47,018 nt of DNA from IMG/VR virus record IMGVR_UViG_3300025853_000160, positions 1 to 47,018 of that record; one strand, given 5' to 3'. A program made the translations under genes and the position numbers. The notes below the pieces were generated by a model, which was given only the letters and a program-made list of their open reading frames with translations, had not been told where the DNA came from and ran no database searches. Positions 3,583 through 27,927 of the stretch are shown one piece after another. Origin of the DNA: a virus. Every line of letters starts with the position of its first letter. Positions within the stretch are counted from its first letter, which is position 1.

Positions 3583-4182
3583 ATGTCTCCCTTTGAGTGT
3601 TATAAGACATACCTTGCAATGAAACAGCATTTTTGCAAGGACAATTATGACTACCACAAATATCATGGAAAGAGTCGTGCATCATTACAATCCTTTTATA
3701 AAAGAAGAGATCGTTACTGGTTTGAGAAACTATCAAGACAAAAACCAGATAGGGAAATTGAAGATTTTTTTGTAGCAAATTTTGCATCATGTGATGATCC
3801 AGACCAAATGTGGATTGGTGAAATCATCAAAAATGGAGATGATAACTATGTGGCATGGAAAAAGAGAATTCAGTCTTTAACTTATACTTTCAAGGAAGAG
3901 ACTGAATCAATTTTTAGTGTCAAAGATTTTGATAAGATGTTTATGATTAAAAACGGTAGACATCCACAAATATTCAAAGAGTACTTACAGTCAAATATAT
4001 CATTTGAGTCGTTTATGATATTAAACAGTATTCTCTCTTTTTCGAAGGAATACGATAAAATACTCGATGATCCGGTTTGGGTATTAGTATCAAGAAGAAT
4101 GAAAAAATATAAACCATTCCTAAATATAGACGTACAACGTTATACCGATATTTTAAAAAACTTTGTTATAGGGGCAAAATGA
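3583..4182 (+). CDS. 59: Replicative helicase loader gp59
   Basis: The 199-aa product aligns by eye along its length with T4 gp59 (217 aa). Shared segments include YKTYLAMKQHF, the basic YKRRDRYWFEKLS near residues 38-50, WIGEI, and LQSNISFESFMILNSIL. gp59 loads the gp41 helicase onto forks and recombination intermediates coated with gp32. Placement just before gp32 fits this partnership. The 59 bases upstream contain no clear ribosome site, but do hold an imperfect repeat of GCCCCTTTA/GCCCCTATTA. The stop overlaps the next start as ATGA at 4179-4182. Confidence 0.88.
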   Translation: MSPFECYKTYLAMKQHFCKDNYDYHKYHGKSRASLQSFYKRRDRYWFEKLSRQKPDREIEDFFVANFASCDDPDQMWIGEIIKNGDDNYVAWKKRIQSLTYTFKEETESIFSVKDFDKMFMIKNGRHPQIFKEYLQSNISFESFMILNSILSFSKEYDKILDDPVWVLVSRRMKKYKPFLNIDVQRYTDILKNFVIGAK

Positions 4183-4514
4183 CTTTTTTTGATTCTTCAG
4201 TAGTTCAAAATGAAATTGCTGAAATTACGGAACTTCAAGAAGAAGTTTATGAGAATGTGTTCAAATTTCCCTCTATGACGAAGGAAGAAAAGATCGAACA
4301 TGTAAATCTTCTGGAAAAACTCATTGAAAAGCAAAGAGTTATGTATACTCGTTTGTCTCTTTCCAATGATCCAGAAGCAATTCAAATGAAAGAAAATATT
4401 GCCAATTCTGCAAGGGATATGGGAATGTCAAGAGATGTTGATATTAACCAAGTCTTTGCTAATATGGGTAAGTTGATCGTCACCATGCGTGACCAGATTG
4501 ACAAGGGTGCATAA
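4179..4514 (+). CDS. DUF1825 family protein
   Basis: This 111-aa protein has a helical DUF1825 pattern: MTFFDSSVVQNEIAEI at the start, a middle helix with KEEKIEHVNLLEKLIEKQRVMYTRL, and a C-terminal IGKLIV/MRDQI-type helix. DUF1825 proteins occur in cyanobacteria and cyanophages and have no assigned function. It lies between gp59 and gp32 with an ATGA overlap to gp59, and so is probably expressed with the replication genes. The gp32 promoter -35 box lies inside its last codons. The phage may have taken this gene from a cyanobacterial host; the sequence alone does not show when. Confidence 0.78.
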   Translation: MTFFDSSVVQNEIAEITELQEEVYENVFKFPSMTKEEKIEHVNLLEKLIEKQRVMYTRLSLSNDPEAIQMKENIANSARDMGMSRDVDINQVFANMGKLIVTMRDQIDKGA

Positions 4515-7863: not shown

Positions 7864-7871
7864 TATTTAGA
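7864..7871 (-). promoter_or_regulatory. Late-type promoter box (TCTAAATA) before gp4
   Basis: On the minus strand the sequence reads TCTAAATA, one mismatch from the T4 late consensus, 28 bases before the gp4 start. It overlaps the first base of the divergent gp54-like gene. The same variant occurs at 32601-32608. Confidence 0.45.
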
Positions 7872-8752
7872 TGCCGGTTAAACCAGTTGCTCGTATGATG
7901 AGCGAGGTTAAAACAAAATTACTTAATCTTTCACTAACATCGCAGTATTCTGTCGAGATATATCCTCCCCCTCCTTCGATATTGGCAAATATAACCGATA
8001 TCTTTGAGAGTAAACCGAGTTTGAATGATTTTGAGCAGGATGTTCTTAACTTGGCGTGTTTTGAAGCAGCACTTCCAGGATCTTCTTTGTTGACGCATGA
8101 AGCAAAGGATGATTATATTGGTGTAACTGAAAAAATTGCATATCGAAAATCATTTGATGACACTGCTAGTTTTAGTTTTTATGTGAATGTTGATCATAAA
8201 AATATTTTCTTTTTTGAGGACTGGATTCGTTTTATTTCTGGGGAACCATTGGTACGTAACCCAGTAATATCATCTTATGGACCTAATCTACGATCCGATT
8301 TCGTTCATAGAATGAGATTTAGATCTGAATATGTATCTCCAGCAATTATTATAAACAAATTTGAAAAAGATTATGAAAAGAAAGGAGTGTATACAGAGTA
8401 TAGATTTGTTGATGCATATCCAACATCAATAAACTCGATTCCGGTGAGTTACGATTCATCTCAACTTTTAAAAGTAACGGTCAACTTTACCTTTACAAGA
8501 TATCTGATTCGTGTTGTTCCTTATAAAGGATCAACCGCAACAATACCAAGAGATAATGCACCAAGAGATGAAAGACGCAGAGGAGGTAACATTAGACTTA
8601 GCGATGGTACTATATTGCAAACTGTTTCTGCAAATACTGGTGATATTAATCTCGGTGCTGCTGATGTTGAGCGAGTATTAAATGGTGTTTTTTCTGCAGA
8701 ACAAAGAGGGCGTAATCCGAACTTTGATCCTAATTTAAATGCCTTTCAATGA
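7871..8752 (+). CDS. 54: Baseplate tail-tube initiator, gp54-like
   Basis: This 293-aa protein starts at ATG 7871 (MPVKPVARMMSEVKTKL). It carries tube-protein features: SQYSVEIYPPPP near the start, LACFEAALPGSSLLTHEAKDDYIGVTEKIAYRK, FSFYVNVDHKNIFFFEDW, and a C-terminal strand LLKVTVNFTFTRYLIRVV. In the T4 model such a protein sits on the baseplate hub and nucleates the tail tube. The final 60 residues are polar and probably flexible. It opens the large plus-strand tail operon. The assignment as gp54 rather than gp48 is by position and is not certain. Confidence 0.68.
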   Translation: MPVKPVARMMSEVKTKLLNLSLTSQYSVEIYPPPPSILANITDIFESKPSLNDFEQDVLNLACFEAALPGSSLLTHEAKDDYIGVTEKIAYRKSFDDTASFSFYVNVDHKNIFFFEDWIRFISGEPLVRNPVISSYGPNLRSDFVHRMRFRSEYVSPAIIINKFEKDYEKKGVYTEYRFVDAYPTSINSIPVSYDSSQLLKVTVNFTFTRYLIRVVPYKGSTATIPRDNAPRDERRRGGNIRLSDGTILQTVSANTGDINLGAADVERVLNGVFSAEQRGRNPNFDPNLNAFQ

Positions 8753-8793: not shown

Positions 8794-9513
8794 ATGCCTT
8801 TACCCCAGATTGTAACCCCATCTTATGAGTTGACTTTGCCATCAACTGAACAATTAATTGACTTTAGACCTTTTCTTGTGAGGGAGGAGAAGTTACTCGT
8901 TCTTGCAATGGAAAGTGAAGATACTAAAGAAATTACGAAAGCAGTTAAAACTGTTATCAAAAACTGCATTCAAACAAAAGGAATTAAGGTTGAAGATCTA
9001 CCAACTTTTGATATTGAGTATCTCTTCCTTAATATTAGAGGAAAGTCAGTTGGAGAAGAAGTTGAGGTTAATATTATTTGTCCAGATGATAACGAAACTC
9101 AAGTACCAGTCAGCATTGACTTAGAAGAAATTCAAGTTAAAAAAGATCCGAAGCATAGCAATAAGATCAAGGTTGATGATAGTATTATGATTGAAATGAA
9201 GTATCCATCTTTGGAGCAATTTGTAAAGAGTAATTTTGATCTCAAAGGCGGAAGTCAGATGAATCAATCTTTTGAACTTATTGCTTCTTGTATTGATAAA
9301 ATTTACACAGCAGAAGAAGTTTGGGCAGCAGAAGATTGCACTAAGCAAGAGATTGTTGACTTTTTGGAGTCAATGAACTCAACTCAGTTCAAAGGCATTG
9401 AATCATTCTTTGAAACTATGCCAAAACTTAGTCATGAAATCAAAGTGAAGAATCCAAAGACTGGAAAAAGCAGTATGGTTGTATTGGAGGGACTGGCAAG
9501 TTTTTTCGCATAG
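8794..9513 (+). CDS. 26: gp26-like protein / tail tape-measure chaperone
   Basis: This 239-aa protein matches the T4 base plate protein family that contains gp26: PQIVTPSYELTLPSTEQLIDFRPFLVREEKLLVLAMES, then ITKAVKTVIKNC and LPTFDIEYLFLNIRGKSVGE. T4 gp26 is described as a hub-assembly protein. Its place just before a tape-measure-like giant gene is that of the tail assembly chaperones of other tailed phages. The last codons read agt ttt ttc gca tag. They contain a heptamer T_TTT_TTC, a textbook -1 slippery site, and the -1 frame runs on into the small ORF that ends at 9692. About 299 residues would be made by the frameshift. Direct evidence that it slips is lacking. Confidence 0.85.
   Translation: MPLPQIVTPSYELTLPSTEQLIDFRPFLVREEKLLVLAMESEDTKEITKAVKTVIKNCIQTKGIKVEDLPTFDIEYLFLNIRGKSVGEEVEVNIICPDDNETQVPVSIDLEEIQVKKDPKHSNKIKVDDSIMIEMKYPSLEQFVKSNFDLKGGSQMNQSFELIASCIDKIYTAEEVWAAEDCTKQEIVDFLESMNSTQFKGIESFFETMPKLSHEIKVKNPKTGKSSMVVLEGLASFFA
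9501..9507 (+). promoter_or_regulatory. Predicted -1 ribosomal frameshift site (T TTT TTC)
   Basis: In the gp26 frame, T9501, TTT 9502-9504 and TTC 9505-9507 form X_XXY_YYZ. After a -1 slip the next codons are CGC ATA GGG ATG ATT, in frame with the small ORF to the stop at 9690-9692. The gp26 TAG at 9511-9513 is thereby bypassed. Confidence 0.65.
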
Positions 9514-9515
9514 GG

Positions 9516-9692
9516 ATGATTCATATAGATCTTATGAACTATTATGAGTTAAATTTCTCTTTGATGCAGTTCCATAAATATTCTTTGACTGAGATTGAAA
9601 ACTTGATTCCATGGGAACGTGATATTTACGTTACATTCCTCAAGAATCATATTGAAGAAGAAAAAATGAAGCAAGAACACGCTAGGCACTAA
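9516..9692 (+). CDS. Small tail-chaperone partner, probably the frameshift extension of gp26
   Basis: ATG at 9516 gives a 58-aa protein (MIHIDLMNYYELNF...). Its middle, MQFHKYSLTEIENLIPWERDIYVTFL, then a charged helix with EEEKMKQE, resembles the second part of tape-measure chaperones, which have a helix ending near a (I/L)PxxxR motif. It is in the -1 frame relative to gp26 and can be joined to it at 9501-9507. It could also be translated on its own by re-initiation, since the ATG is 2 bases after the gp26 stop. In T4 the position would suit gp51, but the sequence is too short for me to claim that name. Confidence 0.65.
   Translation: MIHIDLMNYYELNFSLMQFHKYSLTEIENLIPWERDIYVTFLKNHIEEEKMKQEHARH
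9573..9580 (+). promoter_or_regulatory. Possible late promoter box (CATAAATA) before the giant tail gene
   Basis: CATAAATA, the same variant as at 34276, lies inside the small ORF, 120 bases before the giant gene start at 9701. The long distance makes it less convincing than the other late boxes. Confidence 0.3.
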
Positions 9693-9700
9693 TCGTTCTA

Positions 9701-12700
9701 ATGGCAAAGAAGTATAGAGGTCGTCCCCCAAAAATTAGAAAAACTATCAGAGGAGAGAAATTCAACCCAGATAAGTTTTTTGGCCTCTTTTCTTCTCTAA
9801 AAAGATCATTTTTAGAAAATCAGAAAGATAAAGGGGAAAGTGTAGGTAGTGTAGATAATATAACACCGATTGGTAGATTAAATATTTCTGATCTTGCTCT
9901 ACCATTCATCTATGATGAAGAAAGGCAGGAAGAAAAGCAAAATCCAATTGGTAATGTTTACAATAACATTTACAAGACTTTCAGTAGTGGTGGTCTTGTA
10001 GAGGTAGTAAAAAACTACAATACCATTGTAAATGAGTATATTAAGCAAAGATCATTTGTTCCTTCCACATATCCTCAATCCTGGAAGGATGCAGCAAAGT
10101 CCAAGTATCAACCATTTCAACAACTATCTCCAGAAAAACTAGCATCAATATTTGCATATACTGAAGATAAAACAAAAATTTACCAGAAAGTAAATCAGTT
10201 ATTGAGAACTGGTGACTATTCTGGCGAAGACAAAGAAGATATAAAATTCTTCACAGAAAACTTACAGGGTGCTCTTAAAGAATTAACCAGTAGTGAAAGC
10301 GAGACTGTTGAACTTCATAGAGTTATCAGTGGAGATTATGCAGATACAATCTCCCAATTACAACCCGGAGATACCTTTGAAGAGAAGGGTTTTGGTTCCT
10401 GGAGTAAAGGAGAGTATAAAAGCCCAACAGGAGACCAGTTCATAAAACAAAATCAGACAAATGTTGTCTTAAGAACTGAGTCAAATAAAGGGTATGATGT
10501 ATCACCCATCAGCAACTACCCAAGAGAATCGGAGTATATAATTGCTCCAGTACAGAAATACTCCATTGAGAATATTACTCCAAATGGAATCTACTCAAGA
10601 AGAGTAGGTGATGTTCCAAAGATTGATCTAAAACAATTCTTCTCTGGTGGTAAAGTAACAACCGAGAGTGGTAAAGATATTAATGATGTTGGTATTTCGA
10701 ATGTAGATCGTGGTTCTAGATTCTTAAATTCCTTATTGGGAGTATCTGGTATTGATGGTATATCTGGTATTGATGGTACTTCTGGTTTTATCAAGTCTTT
10801 AGGTCTTCCTGGTGCCTCTGGTACTTCAGGTGTCTCTGGTACTTCAGGTGTCTCTGGTACTTCAGGTGTCTCTGGTACTTCAGGTGTCTCAGGTGTTGAT
10901 GGTACTTCTGGTTTTATCAAGTCTTTAGGTCTTCCTGGTGCCTCTGGTGTTGACGGTGCCTCTGGTACTTCAGGTGTCTCTGGTGTTGATGGTACTTCTG
11001 GTGTTGATGGTATATCTGGTACTTCAGGTGTCTCAGGTGTTGATGGTACTTCCGGTTTTATCAAGTCTTTAGGTCTTCCTGGTGCCTCTGGTACTTCAGG
11101 TGTCTCTGGTGTTGATGGTACTTCTGGTGTTGATGGTACTTCTGGTGTTGATGGTACTTCAGGTACTTCAGGTGTTTCCGGTGTTGATGGTACTTCAGGT
11201 GTTTCAGGTGTTGATGGTACTTCAGGTGTCTCTGGTGTTGATGGTACTTCTGGTGTTGATGGTACTTCTGGTTTTATCAAGTCTTTAGGTCTTCCTGGTG
11301 CCTCTGGTGTTGATGGTATATCTGGCACTTCTGGTGTCTCTGGTGTTGACGGTACTTCTGGTTTTATCAAGTTTTTAGGTCTTCCTGGTGTCTCTGGTGT
11401 TGACGGTGCCTCTGGTACTTCAGGTGTCTCAGGTGTCTCAGGTGTTGATGGTATATCTGGTATTTCTGGTGTCTCTGGTGTTGACGGTACTTCTGGTTTT
11501 ATCAAGTTTTTAGGTCTTCCTGGTGTCTCAGGTGTTGATGGTACTTCAGGTACTTCAGGTGTTTCAGGTGTTGATGGTACTTCGGGTGTTTATGGTACTT
11601 CAGGTACTTCAGGTGTCTCTGGTGTTGATGGTATAGATGGTATAGATGGTATAGATGGTATAGATGGTGTCTCAGGTGTTGATGTTATAGATGGTGTTTA
11701 TAGTATTTCTGATCTTCTAGGTGCTCCTGGCACTTCTGGAGTAGATGGTATTTCAGGTATCTCTGGTGCATCTGGCATAGATGGTATATCTGGAGTAAAT
11801 GGTATATCTGGAGTAGATGGTATATCAGGTATCTCTGGTGCATCTGGCATAGATGGTATATCTGGAGTAAATGGTATATCTGGAGTAAATGGTGCTTCTG
11901 GGGTCTCTAGTTCAAAGAATCGTTCTTTAAAAATAAATTTAAAGCAATTCTTCTCCGGTGGAAAAATAACAACCGAGAGTGGTAAGAGCACTAAAGGTAT
12001 TGATGGAGTCTCTGGTACTTCAGGCACTTCAGGTGCTTCTGGTGTTGATGGTATATCTGGTACTTCTGGTTTTATCAAGTCTCTAGGTCTTCCTGGTGCC
12101 TCTGGTGTTGATGGTATATCTGGTACTTCTGGTTTTATCAAGTCTCTAGGTCTTCCTGGTGCCTCTGGTGTTTCTGGTACTTCAGGCGTCTCAGGTGTTG
12201 ATGGTACTTCTGGTGTTGATGGTATATCTGGTACTTCAGGTGTCTCTGGTACTTCAGGTGTTTCTGGTACTTCAGGTGTTTCTGGTACTTCAGGTGTCTC
12301 TGGTACTTCAGGTGTTTCTGGTACTTCAGGTGTTTCTGGTACTTCAGGTGTTTCTGGTACTTCAGGTGTCTCAGGTGTTGATGGTACTTCTGGTGTTGAT
12401 GGTATATCTGGTACTTCAGGTGTTTCTGGTACTTCAGGTGTCTCTGGTACTTCAGGCGTCTCAGGTGTTGATGGTACTTCTGGTGTTGATGGTATATCTG
12501 GTACTTCAGGTGTAGATGGTATTTCTGAAGTATCTAATACGCCCAATCGTCCATCAAAGATTGATTTAAAACAATTTTTCACTGGTGGAAAAGTAACCAT
12601 AGAAAGTGGTAAAGATATTAAGGGTGTTGGTATTTCGGGTATAGATCGTGTTTCTAGATTCTTAAATTCTCTATTAGGAGTAGATGGTACTTCAGGTGTC

Positions 12701-15700
12701 TCTGGTGTTTCTGGTACTTCAGGTGTTGATGGTACTTCAGGTGTCTCTGGTGTTTCTGGTACTTCAGGTGTTGATGGTATATCTGGTACTTCTGGTTTTA
12801 TCAAGTCTCTAGGTCTTCCTGGTGTTTCTGGTCTTGATGGTACTTCAGGTGTCTCTGGTGTTTCTGGTACTTCAGGTGTTGATGGTACTTCAGGTGTCTC
12901 TGGTGTTTCTGGTACTTCAGGTGTTGATGGTACTTCAGGTGTTTCTGGTGTTGATGGTATATCTGGTACTTCTGGTTTTATCAAGTCTCTAGGTCTTCCT
13001 GGTGCCTCTGGTGTTGATGGTACTTCAGGTACTTCAGGTGTTTCAGGTGTTGATGGTACTTCGGGTGTTGATGGTACTTCAGGTACTTCAGGTGTCTCAG
13101 GTGTTGATGGTATATCTGGTACTTCTGGTTTTATCAAGTCTCTAGGTCTTCCTGGTACTTCGGGTGTTGATGGTACTTCTGGTTTTATCAAGTCTCTAGG
13201 TCTTCCTGGTGCCTCTGGTGTTGATGGTACTTCTGGTGTTGATGGTATATCTGGTACTTCAGGTGTCTCAGGTGTTGATGGTACTTCAGGTGTTTCTGGT
13301 ACTTCAGGTGTTTCTGGTGTTGATGGTACTTCAGGTGTCTCAGGTGTTGATGGTATAGATGGTGCATCCGGTATAGATGGTGCCTCAGGTGTTGATGTTA
13401 TAGATGGTGTTTATAGTATTTCTGATCTTCTAGGTGCTCCTGGCACTTCTGGTGTGGATGGTATTTCAGGTATCTCTGGTGTAGATGGTACTTCAGGTAT
13501 CTCTGGTGTGGATGGTACTTCGGGTATCTCTGGTGCATCTGGCATAGATGGTATATCTGGAGTAAATGGTGCTTCTGGTGTCTCTAGTTCAAAGAATCGT
13601 TCTTTAAAAATCAATTTAAAGCAATTCTTCTCTGGTGGTAAAATAACAACAGAGAGTGGTAAGGACATTACGGGTGCAGGTGTTGATACTCAACTCATTG
13701 CTGCTCAACCAGGTGAAGTTGTAATCAACAAAGAAACTGTTAATTCAGTTGGAGCAGATTATTTCTTAAATCTCAATAAAGTATTTGGTGGTTCTGATTC
13801 CAATAAACCCAAAGAGGCAAAAGTACAAGCAGCATCTGGTGGTGGATTTATTAACTTTATAAGTTCTTTTGCTTCTGGTGGACAAGTAAATTATAATGAA
13901 GAAAATATAGATGAAAATCTTGATGAGATTCGTCAAGAAATTACAGAAGATGGGACGATTGGTGGTGAGAAATTAACACCAGAACAAAGAAAGAAAGCAT
14001 TTAAGATTAGAAGTAATAAGGTTGCATTTAAGAACTTTGTATATAACTTCTTAGGTGTAGATGAAAAACCAAAAACTCAGACTGGTGGTGGTTCTGGAAG
14101 TAATGGTGGGTCAGGTGCTCCACCTTCGTCTATTCCAAGTACTAGGATGCTTCCTGGAACGGAAGTTTCATCTCTTACTATCAGAAAACCCGAGGAACAG
14201 AAGCAAAACGTAGAACCAGAACCGGAATCAAAAACTGATACTCAGAAGGAAAAAGTTGCAAAAGACTCCAAAAAGAAGGAGAAAAAAGTCAACAGTAGTC
14301 TTGAAAAGAATGTAAGTATTATTCGTAAGACTGTTGATTCTATCTTTAAAACTCTCACTGAGCAAAACAAGTTCCTTGGAAAACAAGTAGAGAAAGAAAG
14401 AAAGTCTTTTGAAAATCAGAAACGTAGTAAGAAAGAAGACAGATATGAAGCAAAGAAAGATAAAAAGTTCAAAAAAGCATTTGAAAAAACAGTAAAACCA
14501 TTCAGCAATATTCTGGATGGAATCATAAATTATTTGACTGCTATTCTGTTGGGAAGAGCAATTACTAAATTGATAAACTGGTTCAGTGATCCAGATAATA
14601 AGTCTAAGGTTGAAAGTATTGGTAGATTCCTAAAAGATTTCTGGCCTGCACTTATTGGTGCATATTTGCTCTTTGGTAACTCTTTAGGTAGATTTATTTC
14701 TAGTATGGTTTTCTCGGTCACTAAGATGACTGCGAGACTTCTTAAGTTTGCAATACCAAAACTATACAAGGTTATTCGAAAGAATCCGATTGCTGCCGCA
14801 GCAACTGCGATTATTGGTGGTGCTGCTATTGGTGGTATGATGCAGTCGGAAACACCATCAAATGATCCAGAGAGAGCAAAGGAAGGAAAGACGCAACTAG
14901 AAGATACTCAAGATTTTGGTGGAACAACAGGTGCTCCAATCAGTGGAGATATGCTTGGATTTGCTGCTGGTGGTTTAGTTCCATTTAAAGGTGATGATTC
15001 AAATTTACCAAAAGAGCAGAAGGTACAACAATCACAGCAAGGAGATAAGAAAAAAGATAATCCTTTATTAAATCTTCTTGGTATGACGCCAAGTGGAATG
15101 GCAATTAAAGGTGCTATGTCCTTTGGTTCATCAGTCAAAGAAAAGGGGTTGGGTGGCACTATAAAAGATGTTGCAATGATGCATCCTCTTGCTAAGATGG
15201 GTGCCTTTGGACTTGGAAAAGGAGAAGAAGTATTAGGAAATATTAAAGAAAAGGGACTCGGTAATACTGCAATGGATGCAGCTGGCGGTCTTTATGGTAA
15301 TGTTAAAGGATTCCTAGATGAAAAGGGTATCAGTGGTTACCTTGCAAATCAACCTGGAATGCAAATTGCAAGTGGACTGCTAAACAAAAACATGAAGATG
15401 TTTAGTGGCATTAAGGGATTTATGGATAATAAAGGTATTACCGATACCTTAATGATGAATCCTCTTATCAAGATGGGTGCATTTGGTATGGATAATATTA
15501 TGAATTTTGGTAAGGATCCTGCAAGGGATATTACTGGAAATAGTGGAACTGATGTTAAAGGTGCTGGTGTTGATACTCAATTAATTTCTGCAAGACCTGG
15601 AGATGTCGTCATCAACAAGGAAGCAGCAACTGCTATGGGTCCAAACTACTTTGATACTATTAGTAGTGGAACTGGTGAGAAGATAAGTGGAGCAGGTCCT

Positions 15701-18055
15701 GATACACAGATGATTGCTGCACGTCCTGGTGAGATTGTTGTTAATCGAGAAACTGTAAATGCTGTTGGTGCAGATCACTTCCTAGGACTCAACAGATTAT
15801 TTGGTGGTCCTGGTGCAAACAAACCAAAGACTGCAAAGGTTCAAGCAGCATCTGGCGGAGGACATGTTCTTCCTGCTTTCTCTTCTGGTGGTATGGTTGG
15901 TGGTGGCAAACCAAGCGAAGATTATAAAAAGGAAGGAGATAGTGCATCTAATGTAGAAAATAAAAGACTATTGGATGAAAGAGAAACTGATCTTAATAAA
16001 GAATCTTCTGGGGAAAATATAAGAACATCATCACCAGAATATCAAGAAAAAGAAATTGAAAAAACAACATCAATTGCTCCAAAAACTCAAATTGTTCCCG
16101 GAGCAAAAACAAATGCATCTAGTATGGATGATGACAAACCAGAACAAAAAGGATTTTTTGGTAAACTTATAGGAAGACTGGGATCCATATTTGGGTTGGA
16201 TAAATCAAACAAAGAAACTCAAGATACCATTCAAATTCCACAAGAAACAATCAATTATATTATTGATACTTGTGTTAAAAGAGTATGTGAGATTATTAAT
16301 TGCATTCCTGGACAAAAAAGTTCTGATAATGTGGTATCATCAACATCTTCAAGTTCTAGTGCTGGTAAAGTTGGAGATGCAAGGCAGGCGATTCCAATTC
16401 AAACGGTACAACCAATTGCCCCCATTACTTCTTCTATACCTACACCTACACCTGCACCATCTAAACCTAAAATTTCTTCAAAACCAAAACTAGGTGGTGG
16501 TGCTTCAAATGCACAAACAGGATCAAAGGTTACTTCAACACCCACGGAAAGTTTAGTTCCAAGTTCATCTTCTTCTGGTGCCACTGGAAGTGCCAGTGCC
16601 ACTACTGGAGGATCTAGCAGTGGATCGGGTGGTGGGTCTGGCGGAGGCAAATTTGGTCCATTATTAGATTTTATATCCAAAGGTGAAGGTGGTTACAATT
16701 CTATGAATCAAGGAACCAGGGGAGGAAGAATTGTCGGAAGTACTAATAATTCATCATCAATCTTAGGAAAGAATCTTCCAGACATGACCATTGGAGAAGT
16801 TATGGAAAATCAAGCGTCTGGTAGATTATTTGCTGCTGGTAGATACCAAATCATTCCAGAAACGATGAAGTTTGCATTAAAGGCTTCAGGTTTAAGTAAG
16901 GATGATAAGTTTAATGAAGCAAATCAAGATAAGCTTGGCATTTCATTGATTCAATATAAAAGACCATATGCATATGAATATCTAACTGGAAAGCACGACG
17001 ATTTGAATGGCGCAATGCTAGAAATGGCAAGAGAGTGGGCTTCCTTACCAGACCCAAATACGGGAAATAGTTATTATGGAAGTGGAAATAGAGCATTGCA
17101 TACGGTGGAAGAAGTTAAAGCAGCAATGATGGCAACTAGAGGTGCCAAAGATACTCCGATGAAAAAAGAAGAAAAATCATCTTCACCTCAGTCTTCATCT
17201 CTTGCTCAAGTAGGGTCAAAAGTTACGTCATCTCCAACAGAAAGCTTAGTTCCAGGTGGAGATGTCAAGAAAAAAACTGAAGATGCTAAAAAACCAACTG
17301 TTGCAGAAATTGAAAAAATGGATATTAAGACGCTGAATAGTTTCCTTGATCCTACAAAGACGGGTGCCTCATTCCCTCTCGTGTTTGCAGCAGCAAAAGC
17401 AGCAAAAGAAAAAGCAAGAGCAGAAGGAATTCCTGAAGATGAAGTTCAAAGATTAGGTCAAGTTGCGGCAGTAACAGCAAAATTATATGGAAATGCAAAA
17501 AATAAATCTATATCTCCTCTTGGAAAAGATTTAAATTTGAATATACCAAGAATGGACTTGTCTGGAATGAAGAATCCATTCCAAATTGGAGAAGTCAAAG
17601 AAAATTCTGGAAAAGATTTAAATTTGAATATACCAAGAATGGACTTGTCTGGAATGAAGAATCCATTCCAAATTGGAGAAGTCAAAGAAAATTCTGGGAT
17701 AGATATAGAAGGTGCAACTGCTGATAGGCAACTCATTAAGGCACAACCTGGTGAGTATGTATTGCCTTTTGATACTGTAATGAGACTTGGTGGTCCTAGA
17801 GCACTTGATTCTTTAGTTGCTAGAACAGATAGCAACTCCACCGCAGCAAAACTTGGTGCGATATCAAAACCATCATTGGCAGTTGAGCAACCAGTAATGG
17901 ATGATATGTCAATGATTGATACTCTCCCAGCAATTATACAATCCTCTGGTGGTGGTAGTGATCAAGGGGGAGGACGTGGATCTGATATTCCAGGTGTAAC
18001 AATCTCTGATAATGCTGCAAGAAGACAAGCAAGAATTATGTACGGACTAGTTTAA
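9701..18055 (+). CDS. Giant tape-measure/hub protein with ADP-ribosyltransferase-like, collagen-like and transglycosylase-like domains
   Basis: This 2784-aa protein lies in the tape-measure position after the gp26 chaperone pair. Domains in order: basic N-terminus; residues ~105-300, an ADP-ribosyltransferase-like fold with [20 protein letters not shown], Arg207 (LHRVI), an STS-like GSWS around Ser233, and Glu276-x-Glu278 ([10 protein letters not shown]); three collagen-like Gly-X-Y blocks (~348-1297) with twelve FIK(S/F)LGLPG insertions; repeated modules such as [21 protein letters not shown] (~1325, ~1950, ~1995, ~2670); a Lys/Glu-rich coil (1485-1600); hydrophobic segments near 1600-1720; a lysozyme/transglycosylase-like domain (2319-2475, likely catalytic Glu2329, [11 protein letters not shown]). 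Glycine-hinge motifs (FSSGG, FASGG) are typical of tape-measure proteins. An exact 29-residue duplication lies near 2608-2665. It is probably ejected with the tail contents. The ART call is by motif only. Confidence 0.8.
10742..13593 (+). repeat. Collagen-like Gly-X-Y coding repeat array
   Basis: About 2.8 kb of 9-bp and 18-bp units, mostly ggtacttca, ggtgtttct and ggtgttgat, code for GTS, GVS and GVD triplets with glycine at every third residue. The array is split into three blocks by two unique stretches (about 11905-11999 and 12525-12683) that repeat an [18 protein letters not shown] module. Twelve FIK(S/F)LGLPG insertions interrupt the triplets. Because units are multiples of three, gains or losses keep the frame. 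Confidence 0.95.
17522..17695 (+). repeat. Exact 87-bp tandem duplication
   Basis: The segment 17522-17608, encoding 29 residues ([18 protein letters not shown]...), is repeated without a visible base change at 17609-17695. It lies near the C-terminus of the giant tail protein. Confidence 0.95.
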
Positions 18056-23437: not shown

Positions 23438-23665
23438 ATGGAAAACATCGAATCCCATATTGAAAAGGACAGAAAGATCCTTGATAACCCTCAAACTTCC
23501 CCGCAACAACGTCGGCATATTGAGAGTGAACTAGAAGAACTAGAAACATACGTTAAGAATCATAAAGAAGATATTGAGGCAGGAGATCATCACGATCCCA
23601 CTCCACTTGAACTTTATTGTGATTCAAACCCAGAAGCAGACGAGTGTAGAATCTACGAGGACTGA
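23438..23665 (+). CDS. cp12: CP12-like protein
   Basis: This 75-aa protein ends with PLELYCDSNPEADECRIYED. It matches the C-terminal CP12 signature, with a cysteine pair Cys61-Cys70 flanking NPEADE. CP12 proteins inhibit the Calvin cycle by tethering PRK and GAPDH through this C-terminal loop. The N-terminal half is a charged helix (IEKDRKILDNPQTSPQQRRHIESELEELETY), unlike the host protein, and lacks the AWD_VEEL core and the N-terminal cysteine pair. The gene sits between gp27 and gp5, and its stop overlaps the gp5 start (TGATG), so it would be expressed late with virion genes. It could be a true metabolic gene or a structural protein that only shares the motif. Confidence 0.7.
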   Translation: MENIESHIEKDRKILDNPQTSPQQRRHIESELEELETYVKNHKEDIEAGDHHDPTPLELYCDSNPEADECRIYED

Positions 23666-26600
23666 TGACAAGACTTTTTGATCAGCAATCATTTGGTTCA
23701 GGAGGAGCTAACTTTTGGATCGGTCAAGTTGTTGACGATTCAACTTGGAGAGATAACGTTAACCCCAAACTGCATGAAGATCCAGCAGACATCAAAGGAT
23801 GGGGTTATCGTTATAAGGTAAGAATTTTTGGTAATCAAACAAAAATTAAAACCGACGATGAAGTTCCTGATGAACTGCTTGCTACGGCAGAAGTTCTGTA
23901 TCCAGTTACTGCTGGATCTGGACAAGCAGGAAGTAGACAAACCCCCAATTTAAGACAAGGAAACTTTGTACTTGGATTTTATAAGGATGGTCTAGATTCA
24001 CAGCAACCCGTCATTATGGGTGCTATTGGAACTAATGACAACATTGTGTTGGAAGGTGCTGATCCAGAAGAAGGATTTATGGCACGGACTGGAACCGATG
24101 GTCTTTCTGGTCCAATTCCAGTTGCTGCAAAAGATCAATTACTTTCTTCTAATGGTAGTGATAAACCAGTAAGAGAAGGAACATCAGTGAGTATTGCTGC
24201 GATTTCTGATCCAATGCAAGCATTTGCTGGAAATGAAACGACAGCACTTAAAGTTGCTGATAAAAATAAAGAAAATGAATTGGACACTGTTCAAATCATT
24301 ATTAAAAATTTACTAGCAGTCATTAATAGAGTTAGAGCTTCTTCAGCATCATTTTTTGGAGCATCAACCGCTCCTACTAGAATTATAAAATCAGAAATCA
24401 ATAAGGTTATAAATCTAGTTGCAAGTTTTATCAAATCATTAATTCAAAAAATACGTGGAACAGTCATTACTGCACTTAATAATGCTGTAAAGGATTTTGT
24501 TTATTTTCTATTTCCAAACCAGAGACCAGTACTAGAAGAAATTCAAGTCCAGGCAACTGATACCATAGGGTGTGTATTCAATAAGATTATTGATGGTCTG
24601 ATTACTCTTGTAAAAGGATTTTTAGAGGAATTTATTCAAAATAACGTCAATGCTCCTTTATGTGCAGTTGAAGGTGCAGTAGGAAAACTTTTAAATAATG
24701 GATTAGTAGATGTTGCAGACGCATTGAGCTCTGTTCTTGGTCCTATTCAAGGTGTGTTTGCTGGAATTGGTGGTGCTGCTAATATTGGTGGAGGTCTTAG
24801 TGTTGGTGGAATTATTGACCAAATAGCAGCAGTTCTACAATTTTTGTCTTGTGATGAGACTCAACAACATCCAAAAATTAAAGAGTGGAGTCCTTGGGCA
24901 GGCATTAAGGGAACCACTCCATTATCAAGTCCTCTCTCTAATTTAATTGCAGGTGTAAACTTGGGTGGTGCAGCACCAGCATGTAACACAGGACCTTCTC
25001 TTGCTGCTCCACCAGCATTAGTTGCAATTGGTGGTAATGCACTTATCGATGCTGTATTTAATCCGATCGTAAGTGCATCTGGCGAAATTATTGCTGTGGA
25101 CATTGTGAATCCTGGTGTTGGTTATCAAGCAGCACCAACGATTGTAGTAACAGCAACGAATGATCGGGGAGTTATTGGCGGGGGAGCAGTTCTTCAACCA
25201 GTTGTCCAAAATGGAGCAGTAACAGATGTTGTTGTAAAAGAATCTGGATCTGGTTTTCTACCAGCATCTAACGGAACAACAGTTGGTGCAGGAAATGTAG
25301 TTTTCAGCACTCCTGGACAAACAGTTGTCTTTTCCAAACCTCCAGGACCAAGAATTCCTGGTGGTACAACTTTGAATAGCAGTTTCTCAGTCCCTAGAGG
25401 TGCATCTATACCTTCAGGAACAATTATACCTTCAGGAACAACTCTTCCTACAGACTTAATTCTCTCAGAAGGATCTGGTGGAACTCCTGTGGTCCTTGAA
25501 GGTACTGCGGGTTTAAGATTACTTGCTGGTGGTGTTGGTGGAGATGCAGTAAATTTAAATGGGCAACCCGCATTCCTAGGTGGAAGTGGAACACCAATTT
25601 CTGGTGGACTTAGTGGAATATTCAATTCTTTAAATGGCGAACTTGTATTAGATGTCGAACAAGATGTAACTCCACCACAAACACTTGATAATATTGAAGA
25701 ATCATCTGCTATCTCTGAGGATGTTTTTTCTGGTGGAACTGAATTGAGAGCTGGTTCTACGGGAGGAACACCAGTACTTGTTGATTCAGTTCCACTAACT
25801 GCTGGTGGTGTTCCTGTAAATGCTGGTGGAAATGGGGGAGAACTTGTAACTTCTGGTGGTTCTGGCGGAACACCTGTGACTATTGGAGGAGTTCCTGTAA
25901 CTGATTCCAATGGAGTTCCTGTAACTTCTGGGGCAACTGGAGGAACACCTGTAATTGCTGGTGGAACTGGAGGAACACCTGTAATTGCTGGTGGAACTGG
26001 AGGAACAAATGCAACTGCTGGGGCAACTGGAGGAACTGCTGGGGCAACTGGAGGAACTGCTGGGGCAACTGGAGGAACAAATGCAACTACTAACATTACT
26101 CCTATAAATTCTAGTGCTGGTCCTTTACGTGTTGGAGCAAGTGTTAGTGCATCTACAACACTTACTACAACTAGACCTAGAAGAACTAATGCAATTCGCA
26201 GACGTTCAACTCAGAATACAATAACTGTTGGTGGAACTGGTGGAACTAGGTTGACTGCTGGCGGAACTGGAGGCAGACCAGCAACTATTAATGGTTCCCC
26301 ACTATCTGTTGGTGGACAAGGTGGAACTATATTATCTGTCGGTGGACCAGGAGGAATACCTGTAACGGTAGGTAGATTGCCTGTAACTCTTGGTGCAGCA
26401 GGGGGAACACCTATTAATGTTGGAGCAACAGGGGGAACTCCGGTAACCGCAGATAGACAATCTGTGACTGTTGGAGCAACAGGAGGAACACCAATATCTT
26501 CTGCAACTAGAACTAATAGCAGAAAAAATGTAGCAGTACCTACTATACCTACGATAAATCCAGAGACAGGAGAATTTGAAGTTACAGATGAAACACCTAT

Positions 26601-27927
26601 AACTGTTGGTGGAACTGGTGGATTACCTTTAACTGTTGGATCAGATGGTGGCGATCCAGTGTCTATTAATAGGTCACCCATAACTGTTGGTGGTTCTGGA
26701 GGAAGAGTGTTAAGTTCTGGAGGAGCAACTCTTGCAGTTGCTAGAAAGGAAGTATTTCTTACAGAAGGAACAACTTTGACTGAAGACCTAGTAGTTTCAT
26801 TTGATAATACTATTCCAGAAGGATCTATCATTAGTTCTGGAACTACAATTCCATTTGATATTGAATTGACCACAATTTTAGATCTTCCTAAGCAACTTAT
26901 TGATGCGATTCAAGCAGAACCATTTTCAAATTCTCTTGAGGCTGGAGATGTTGAGGGTCTTTTGGAATTTGGATACACTGCTTACTCTCCAAACAAAACA
27001 GTTAGAGTAAAACCAGGTGACCAAATATCTGCACCGTTTGGAACTACATCAGAGATTGTAGATAATCTTGGAAATGTTATTGATACCATTATTGGTAAAG
27101 GACAAACTGTTCCAATCACAGTCAAAAGTTTTGGAAATTACACAACTCCAAAACCAATAACAGAAACTACCGATTTTAGTGGGTTATCTATAACTGCTGG
27201 TGGTTCTGGCGGAACACCTGTGACTATTGGAGGAGTTCCTCTAACTGATTCTAATGGAGTTCCTGTAACTGTTGGTGGAATTGGAGGAGTTCCTCTAACT
27301 GATTCTAATGGAGTTCCTGTAACTGTTGGTGGAACCGGAGGAGCTCCTGTAACCGATTCGAATGGAGTTCCTGTAACTGTTAGTGGAACTGGAGGAACAC
27401 TTGTAACTGATTCCAATGGAGTTCCTGTAACTGTTGGTGGAACTGGAGGAACACCTGTGACTACTGGGGGAGTTCCTGTAACTGATTCGAATGGAGTTCC
27501 TGTAACTGTTGGTGGATCTGGAGGAACACCTTTAACAGTCGAGTCTAATAAGATAACTATTGGAGAAGAACCATCAGATGGACTGGGTAGATATCCTGCA
27601 GTCTTAGCAATAAAAGATGTAGCAGTTCTAAATAATGGCATCAACTATAGTGATATTGATGAGATTGTAGTTACTCCTGATAATGGTGCTAAACTTGAAC
27701 CAATACTTGATGATTTTGGTAAGTTAATTGATGTGAATGTAATTGATGGTGGTCTTGGATTTAAGGAAATGCCAAAAGTAATAGTTAAGTCAAAAACGGG
27801 AATTAATGCTAAAATAGTTCCTGTATTTGATGTTATTAGATTAGGAGAAGATGTGGAAGAATCCCTCAATGTTCCAGCAGGAACTCCAACTGTTAAAGTA
27901 ATTGATTGTGTGGGTCAAGTCACATGA
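23665..27927 (+). CDS. 5: Enlarged baseplate hub/spike protein gp5
   Basis: The N-terminus of this 1420-aa protein (~1-150) is the gp5/VrgG-like OB domain: FWIGQVVDDSTW, YRYKVRIFG, then FVLGFYKDGLDSQQPVIMGAIG. T4 gp5 has 575 aa with a lysozyme domain after the OB fold and a beta-helix needle. Here no lysozyme motif is seen. Instead there are hydrophobic and helical segments (~200-420), a module with GYQAAPTIVV (repeated near the C-terminus as INYSDIDEIVV), and about 600 residues of Gly-rich repeats such as GGTGGTPV and DSNGVPVTVGG. The needle-like part is on the next gene, which overlaps this stop. The protein probably forms the trimeric hub spike. The role of the Gly-rich repeats is unknown. 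Confidence 0.82.
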   Translation: MTRLFDQQSFGSGGANFWIGQVVDDSTWRDNVNPKLHEDPADIKGWGYRYKVRIFGNQTKIKTDDEVPDELLATAEVLYPVTAGSGQAGSRQTPNLRQGNFVLGFYKDGLDSQQPVIMGAIGTNDNIVLEGADPEEGFMARTGTDGLSGPIPVAAKDQLLSSNGSDKPVREGTSVSIAAISDPMQAFAGNETTALKVADKNKENELDTVQIIIKNLLAVINRVRASSASFFGASTAPTRIIKSEINKVINLVASFIKSLIQKIRGTVITALNNAVKDFVYFLFPNQRPVLEEIQVQATDTIGCVFNKIIDGLITLVKGFLEEFIQNNVNAPLCAVEGAVGKLLNNGLVDVADALSSVLGPIQGVFAGIGGAANIGGGLSVGGIIDQIAAVLQFLSCDETQQHPKIKEWSPWAGIKGTTPLSSPLSNLIAGVNLGGAAPACNTGPSLAAPPALVAIGGNALIDAVFNPIVSASGEIIAVDIVNPGVGYQAAPTIVVTATNDRGVIGGGAVLQPVVQNGAVTDVVVKESGSGFLPASNGTTVGAGNVVFSTPGQTVVFSKPPGPRIPGGTTLNSSFSVPRGASIPSGTIIPSGTTLPTDLILSEGSGGTPVVLEGTAGLRLLAGGVGGDAVNLNGQPAFLGGSGTPISGGLSGIFNSLNGELVLDVEQDVTPPQTLDNIEESSAISEDVFSGGTELRAGSTGGTPVLVDSVPLTAGGVPVNAGGNGGELVTSGGSGGTPVTIGGVPVTDSNGVPVTSGATGGTPVIAGGTGGTPVIAGGTGGTNATAGATGGTAGATGGTAGATGGTNATTNITPINSSAGPLRVGASVSASTTLTTTRPRRTNAIRRRSTQNTITVGGTGGTRLTAGGTGGRPATINGSPLSVGGQGGTILSVGGPGGIPVTVGRLPVTLGAAGGTPINVGATGGTPVTADRQSVTVGATGGTPISSATRTNSRKNVAVPTIPTINPETGEFEVTDETPITVGGTGGLPLTVGSDGGDPVSINRSPITVGGSGGRVLSSGGATLAVARKEVFLTEGTTLTEDLVVSFDNTIPEGSIISSGTTIPFDIELTTILDLPKQLIDAIQAEPFSNSLEAGDVEGLLEFGYTAYSPNKTVRVKPGDQISAPFGTTSEIVDNLGNVIDTIIGKGQTVPITVKSFGNYTTPKPITETTDFSGLSITAGGSGGTPVTIGGVPLTDSNGVPVTVGGIGGVPLTDSNGVPVTVGGTGGAPVTDSNGVPVTVSGTGGTLVTDSNGVPVTVGGTGGTPVTTGGVPVTDSNGVPVTVGGSGGTPLTVESNKITIGEEPSDGLGRYPAVLAIKDVAVLNNGINYSDIDEIVVTPDNGAKLEPILDDFGKLIDVNVIDGGLGFKEMPKVIVKSKTGINAKIVPVFDVIRLGEDVEESLNVPAGTPTVKVIDCVGQVT
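25740..27540 (+). repeat. Gly-rich repeat region in gp5 (GGTGGxxV units)
   Basis: Two clusters (about 25740-26760 and 27180-27540) of degenerate units encode GGTGGTPV, GGVPVTDSNGVPVT and related strings. The second cluster repeats a 48-60-bp unit around GATTC(T/C/G)AATGGAGTTCCT at least five times. Units keep the reading frame. Confidence 0.9.

Follow-up and report, generated by a model that had tools for sequence, protein, structure and literature searches.

The gp26 gene of the window, by which we mean the whole stretch of DNA analysed (47,018 nucleotides), ends with a possible slippery sequence and is followed by a small open reading frame in the −1 frame. The question is whether this small ORF is a gene of its own or the end of a longer form of the gp26 product. 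We argue, with a probability of about 0.88, that this T4-like cyanophage obtains its short and long tail assembly chaperones from one gene by −1 programmed frameshifting, whereas the T4 group uses two paralogues. The site and the frame of the fusion are confirmed. Judging from sequence comparison, ribosomal −1 frameshifting at 9501–9507 is very likely (we infer both the slippage on the ribosome and its efficiency), and a function as paired tail assembly chaperones, deduced from homology and gene order, is likely. The features of the locus are the following.

7871–8752, plus strand: tail tube-like gene directly 5′ of gp26 (phrog_45 "tail tube", E = 1.4e-29).
8794–9513, plus strand: gp26, zero-frame product of 239 residues, putative short tail assembly chaperone (PF12322 T4_baseplate, E = 8.2e-77; phrog_150 baseplate hub, E = 3e-82).
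9486–9491, plus strand: Shine–Dalgarno (SD)-like GGAGGG, of which GGAGG is 9486–9490, 10 nt from the heptamer (anti-SD duplex −9.8 kcal/mol in the window).
9501–9507, plus strand: slippery heptamer T_TTT_TTC (direct reading; kept in 178 of 182 related loci).
9507–9692, plus strand: −1 frame extension of 61 codons and a stop, putative gp51-like C-terminal domain of the long form (phrog_634 baseplate hub assembly catalyst, E = 2.2e-24; profile match to the T4 gp51 C-terminus; dN/dS 0.12).
9508–9567, plus strand: possible downstream RNA structure, uncertain (window MFE −17.2; a related 5-bp hairpin occurs in a subclade only).
9511–9513, plus strand: zero-frame stop TAG, one sense codon past the heptamer (direct reading; same one-codon spacing in 106 of 127 distinct junctions).
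9516–9518, plus strand: ATG in the −1 frame, two bases 3′ of the gp26 stop, possible reinitiation start (direct reading; no SD 4–14 nt upstream).
9701–18055, plus strand: next gene, 2784 residues, tape-measure candidate with a collagen-like G-X-Y expansion (phrog_35029, common to the S-SM2 downstream gene).

Direct reading and translation of the window give GCA AGT TTT TTC GCA TAG as the 3′ end of gp26. The first T of the heptamer is a third codon position, which is the right phase for a −1 slip, as an earlier reading of the sequence alone (hereafter the sequence-only reading) had stated. The −1 frame translates from 9507 into the 61 residues RIGMIHIDLMNYYELNFSLMQFHKYSLTEIENLIPWERDIYVTFLKNHIEEEKMKQEHARH, with a stop at 9690–9692, and the predicted fusion is 238 + 61 = 299 residues long; the frame that this reading had described as open for 61 codons past the gp26 stop, and its fusion of about 299 residues, are thus both recovered by translation. 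The gp26 product belongs to the PF12322 family (258.2 bits, for a Pfam cut-off of 24.5). In profile searches the extension matches phrog_634, whose label "baseplate hub assembly catalyst" is the name of T4 gp51, and it also touches the C-terminal end of phrog_150.

According to the sequence-only reading, relatives should keep both the heptamer and the frame of the small ORF, while nearby third positions vary. We therefore aligned the junction over the 80 closest IMG/VR loci, a further 85 loci and distant phages, and what is seen supports −1 programmed frameshifting. All 80 of the closest loci end with NNT TTT TTC, after which the −1 frame continues without a stop into the domain seen in the window. 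The small ORF is in the −1 frame throughout the relatives, never in another one, and selection acts on the stretch between it and the slip site. An in-phase T_TTT_TT stands at the gp26 end in 178 of the 179 loci that reach the site; three of the four loci that lack it end before the site. The heptamer is kept in the distant Aeromonas phage Aeh1 and Vibrio phage D491s, and the slip site reads GAT TTT TTC in Stenotrophomonas phage YB07, AAT TTT TTT in Sinorhizobium phage phiN3, AGT TTT TTT in Methylophilales phage Melnitz and CGT TTT TTA in Pseudoalteromonas phage XG4 (a scan of IMG/VR for relatives of the XG4 gp26 returned none). The same site as in the window is present in S-PM2, a phage of Synechococcus WH7803. 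The expectation that no relative lacks the heptamer fails for one real exception, Vibrio phage D528 (L090, 3060–3300): its PF12322 gene is the only one and its −1 ORF can be recognised, with CTT TTC AAG TAATG in place of the heptamer. It may be that D528 has switched to start–stop coupling.

The conservation of the heptamer is more than that of the amino acids, as can be seen in a sample of 52 clusters (80% protein identity). The codon that precedes the Phe-Phe pair ends in T in 52/52 clusters, although it is any of nine codons (AGT, AAT, GAT, TCT, GCT, GGT, CGT, CAT or ACT); the residue changes and the final T stays, for which the codon usage of these genes gives a probability of about 10^-12, a figure that is approximate because the sequences are related. 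The first Phe is TTT in every cluster, compared with 67% elsewhere (about 10^-9, again approximate on account of relatedness), and the second is TTC in 44 of the 52, compared with 33% elsewhere. In the same genes, other Phe-Phe pairs mostly avoid TTTTTT. Third positions near the heptamer vary across the 52 clusters, while the heptamer and the frame are kept.

The dN/dS ratios show purifying selection on the −1 frame that begins immediately past the slip and also holds where the domain has no ATG before it. In 42 independent pairs, the ratio is 0.12 over codons 4–16 after the slip and 0.09 over codons 17–48; codons 2–3, being constrained by the zero-frame stop, were excluded from this refined test. 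For the 14 pairs without a Met ahead of codon 13, the ratio is 0.11 (95% bootstrap interval 0.01–0.19). When the same stretch is read in frame 0 or in frame +1 instead, it is 1.2 or 2.3, respectively.

A stimulator of the bacterial type is found in the upstream SD-like element. Over the 52 clusters, the energy of pairing with the anti-SD sequence is −6.59 kcal/mol. Synonymous resampling gives −5.25, none of 200 draws being as low as the real value, and the background of the genes is −2.21. The SD-like codons encode Glu-Gly; GAG is used for Glu in 28 of 34 cases, versus 34% elsewhere. Downstream, a test of structure over the clusters found no broadly conserved stimulator (mean z −1.07). A 5-bp hairpin of the GGUCC-AUAU-GGACC type, 10 nt 3′ of the heptamer, is complete in 27 of the 44 sequences of a His-Met subclade, and shows synonymous covariation (shuffle P 0.0004, a value from which relatedness has not been removed). 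It is absent outside this subclade, and the window forms four of its five pairs. We consider this hairpin as a lead: it might promote the slip, or else mask an internal start. As a separate observation, in L005, L009, L019 and relatives, the V/I and D/N codons of the hairpin covary around a Met codon (GTC-GAC, ATC-GAT, GTT-AAC).

Deposited records annotate separate CDSs, and most of them give the small ORF as a gene of its own ("baseplate hub assembly catalyst" or gp51). On this view, its translation would occur by termination and reinitiation at an ATG near the gp26 stop. The window has such an ATG two bases past the TAG, TAATG or TGATG overlaps occur in several lineages, and D528 has only the TAATG arrangement. 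However, in 23 of the 52 clusters none of the first nine −1 codons is ATG, GTG or TTG, and only one cluster has an ATG with an SD within these nine codons. The first Met is more than 12 codons in, inside the conserved domain, in 26 of the 52, so that translation from this Met would give a protein without part of the domain in half of the clusters. Selection before any start, together with this placement of the first Met, is our main argument, on comparative grounds, for a fusion against a separately translated protein. A separate gene would also leave the codon-level constraint on T_TTT_TT unexplained, and T4 carries the domain in fusion with a gp26-like one. We hold this explanation to be unlikely, although in the window itself, with its ATG, a separately made small protein is conceivable.

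Even less probable is that the joining of gp26 and its extension occurs by slippage of the RNA polymerase, rather than of the ribosome, on the run of T. Polymerase slippage is more plausible in the few lineages whose run has seven or eight T; the run is exactly six T in 45 of the 52 clusters, which is short for this process, and slippage during transcription needs neither the phase of the heptamer nor an SD-like element at 10 nt. As for mere chance, the heptamer and the open −1 frame are in themselves unremarkable in a genome of low GC content: TTTTTTC occurs 24 times in the window versus 24.2 expected in shuffles, there are 59 in-phase XXXYYYZ heptamers in its genes, and −1 frames that stay open past a stop are common among them. 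For this reason we rejected statistics from the window only as evidence. The comparative data refute the chance explanation, which we regard as negligible, on three counts: conservation over deep divergence, constrained codons and selection on the −1 frame.

The mechanism that we propose is ribosomal frameshifting, as follows. Most ribosomes would terminate at 9511–9513 and release the short form of 239 residues. A minority would slip back by one base on T_TTT_TTC (9501–9507), helped by the pairing of GGAGG with the ribosome 10 nt upstream, and would then read the −1 frame to 9692, giving the long form of 299 residues, whose additional C-terminal domain would be the counterpart of the C-terminus of T4 gp51. 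If they act like lambda gpG/gpGT, the short and long forms would coat the tape measure protein and bring in the subunits of the tail tube. T4 and its close relatives would obtain this pair from two paralogues, gene 26 for the short protein and gene 51 for the long one.

This last step stems from the comparison with T4, where genes 26 and 51 are separate and divergent. Both T4 products, like the gp26 of the window, carry PF12322; in T4 there are two genes and gp26 does not end in a slip site, whereas the window has one gene and a slip site. The alignment of the fusion with T4 gp51 is ungapped across the position of the slip, and hhalign matches the −1 product to the C-terminus of T4 gp51 (probability 97, E = 4e-11; 0.1 for the reversed control). 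On the basis of these alignments, gp51 is a gp26-like domain followed by a domain equivalent to the −1 product. In a model of a T4-type gp51 (pLDDT 81.7), the slip position is within a helix, and three more helices come after it.

The 25 complete phage genomes considered fall into two clear groups. A single PF12322 gene is present in 18, of which 17 have the slip site and D528 does not; none of the 18 has a second PF12322 gene with the domain fused in frame. The other seven have two PF12322 genes (separate gp26 and gp51), and none has a slip site at the end of gp26. The window is a 47-kb fragment, in which a search with gp26 gives one match. A tree built on the shared domain has one branch (bootstrap 100, SH-aLRT 97) with 29 proteins of the frameshift type on one side and all 14 gp26/gp51 proteins on the other, as expected from a single switch. 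The Straboviridae hold both types, with the slip in Aeh1, Aeromonas phage P19 and Vibrio phage PC-Liy1, and two genes in T4, RB43, Krischvirus and KARL-1, which favours the slip as the older state, a direction that we infer on an unrooted tree. A side observation is that in RB43 (L185, 2001–3294) the gp51-like and gp26-like genes are in tandem on one strand, unlike the divergent genes of T4; the tandem arrangement may be nearer to the original duplication.

A broader scenario, which we put forward as tentative and rather doubtful, is that all T4-like phages descend from an ancestor with one frameshift gene, and that a single duplication in the T4 lineage put two genes in place of recoding, with gp26 fixed as the short protein and gp51 as the long one. 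Frameshifting and duplication would then solve one and the same problem of stoichiometry, each excluding the other, and the slip of the relatives of the window would be tuned by the SD-like element and, in some of them, also by the small hairpin.

The neighbouring genes bear on the proposed function. The order is tail tube, gp26, extension, large gene, and in lambda gpG/gpGT and other G–T frameshifts, as described in passages of PMC5009743, one also finds a short protein, a −1 slip near its 3′ end, a long form with a C-terminal extension, and the order tail tube, chaperone, extension, large tape-measure-like gene. The sequence-only reading had drawn this parallel with G/GT; the gene upstream is tail tube-like, and the next gene is weakly tape-measure-like: matches to tape-measure families are weak for the S-SM2 downstream gene, with values of 1e-4 to 1e-6 in relatives. 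A Foldseek search of the PDB with the models of the window gp26 (AlphaFold2, pLDDT 87.9) and of T4-type gp51 returned no significant match; the top entries for gp26 include the HK97 tail assembly chaperone 2ob9 (E = 1.3) and YqbN 3klu (E = 1.9), neither of which is significant. A search of solved structures by sequence gave nothing useful.

The principle appears to be largely published already, both for the identity of the chaperones and for slip sites in T4-like phages. According to the citations in PMC10885494 and PMC12846349, T4-like tail assembly chaperones were identified by Vladimirov, Gautam and Davidson (2022, Virology 566:9–15), and on this basis we take the principle as published. 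The passage of the PRFect article (PMC10885494) that cites this work mentions T4-like phages with a short and a long gene in place of frameshifting, and the 2025 article PMC12846349 cites it with regard to poly-T slip sites. The latter, in the part concerned, describes a conserved GTTTTT near the 3′ end for the tail assembly chaperone frameshift of Vandenendeviridae and Andersonviridae, which resembles the present case by a poly-T slip site near the 3′ end and an uninterrupted −1 frame, and differs from it by the families and by GTTTTT instead of T_TTT_TTC. The statement of the sequence-only reading that such a frameshift is not the standard description of T4-like phages is correct for T4, whose gp26 and gp51 genes are separate; the idea itself is not new. 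In passages of other articles, the G–T frameshift is said to be conserved in long-tailed phages "except T4" (PMC5009743), and T4 gp51 to be needed but absent from the particle (PMC3004832). The clean distribution, the selection on the linker, the SD-like element and the hairpin of the subclade may be new points; exclusivity, the single origin and the stimulators may not yet be in print.

The small ORF is present in 494 phage records, and those that we examined closely list it as a separate gene or omit it; the deposited annotation, as separate genes or none, is probably incomplete. The present reading would correct the annotation of hundreds of cyanophage genomes, tie T4, long the exception to the conserved tail frameshift, to its marine relatives, and provide a natural comparison of recoding with gene duplication for setting a protein ratio.

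Last, we note three observations made elsewhere in the window. The gene at 3583–4182 (plus strand) has in-phase TTTAAAA and AAAAAAC near its 3′ end (4152–4182), and the −1 frame there continues without a stop for 117 codons, across the next, overlapping gene (4179–4514); this is probably a mere gene overlap. In the tape-measure candidate (9701–18055, plus strand), long Gly-X-Y repeats account for its 2784 residues, the syntenic gene of S-SM2 having 766, and such a collagen-like expansion would be odd in a tape-measure gene. In the baseplate region, the gene at 23665–27927 (plus strand) codes for a protein of 1420 residues with many GGTPVTVGG-like repeats.
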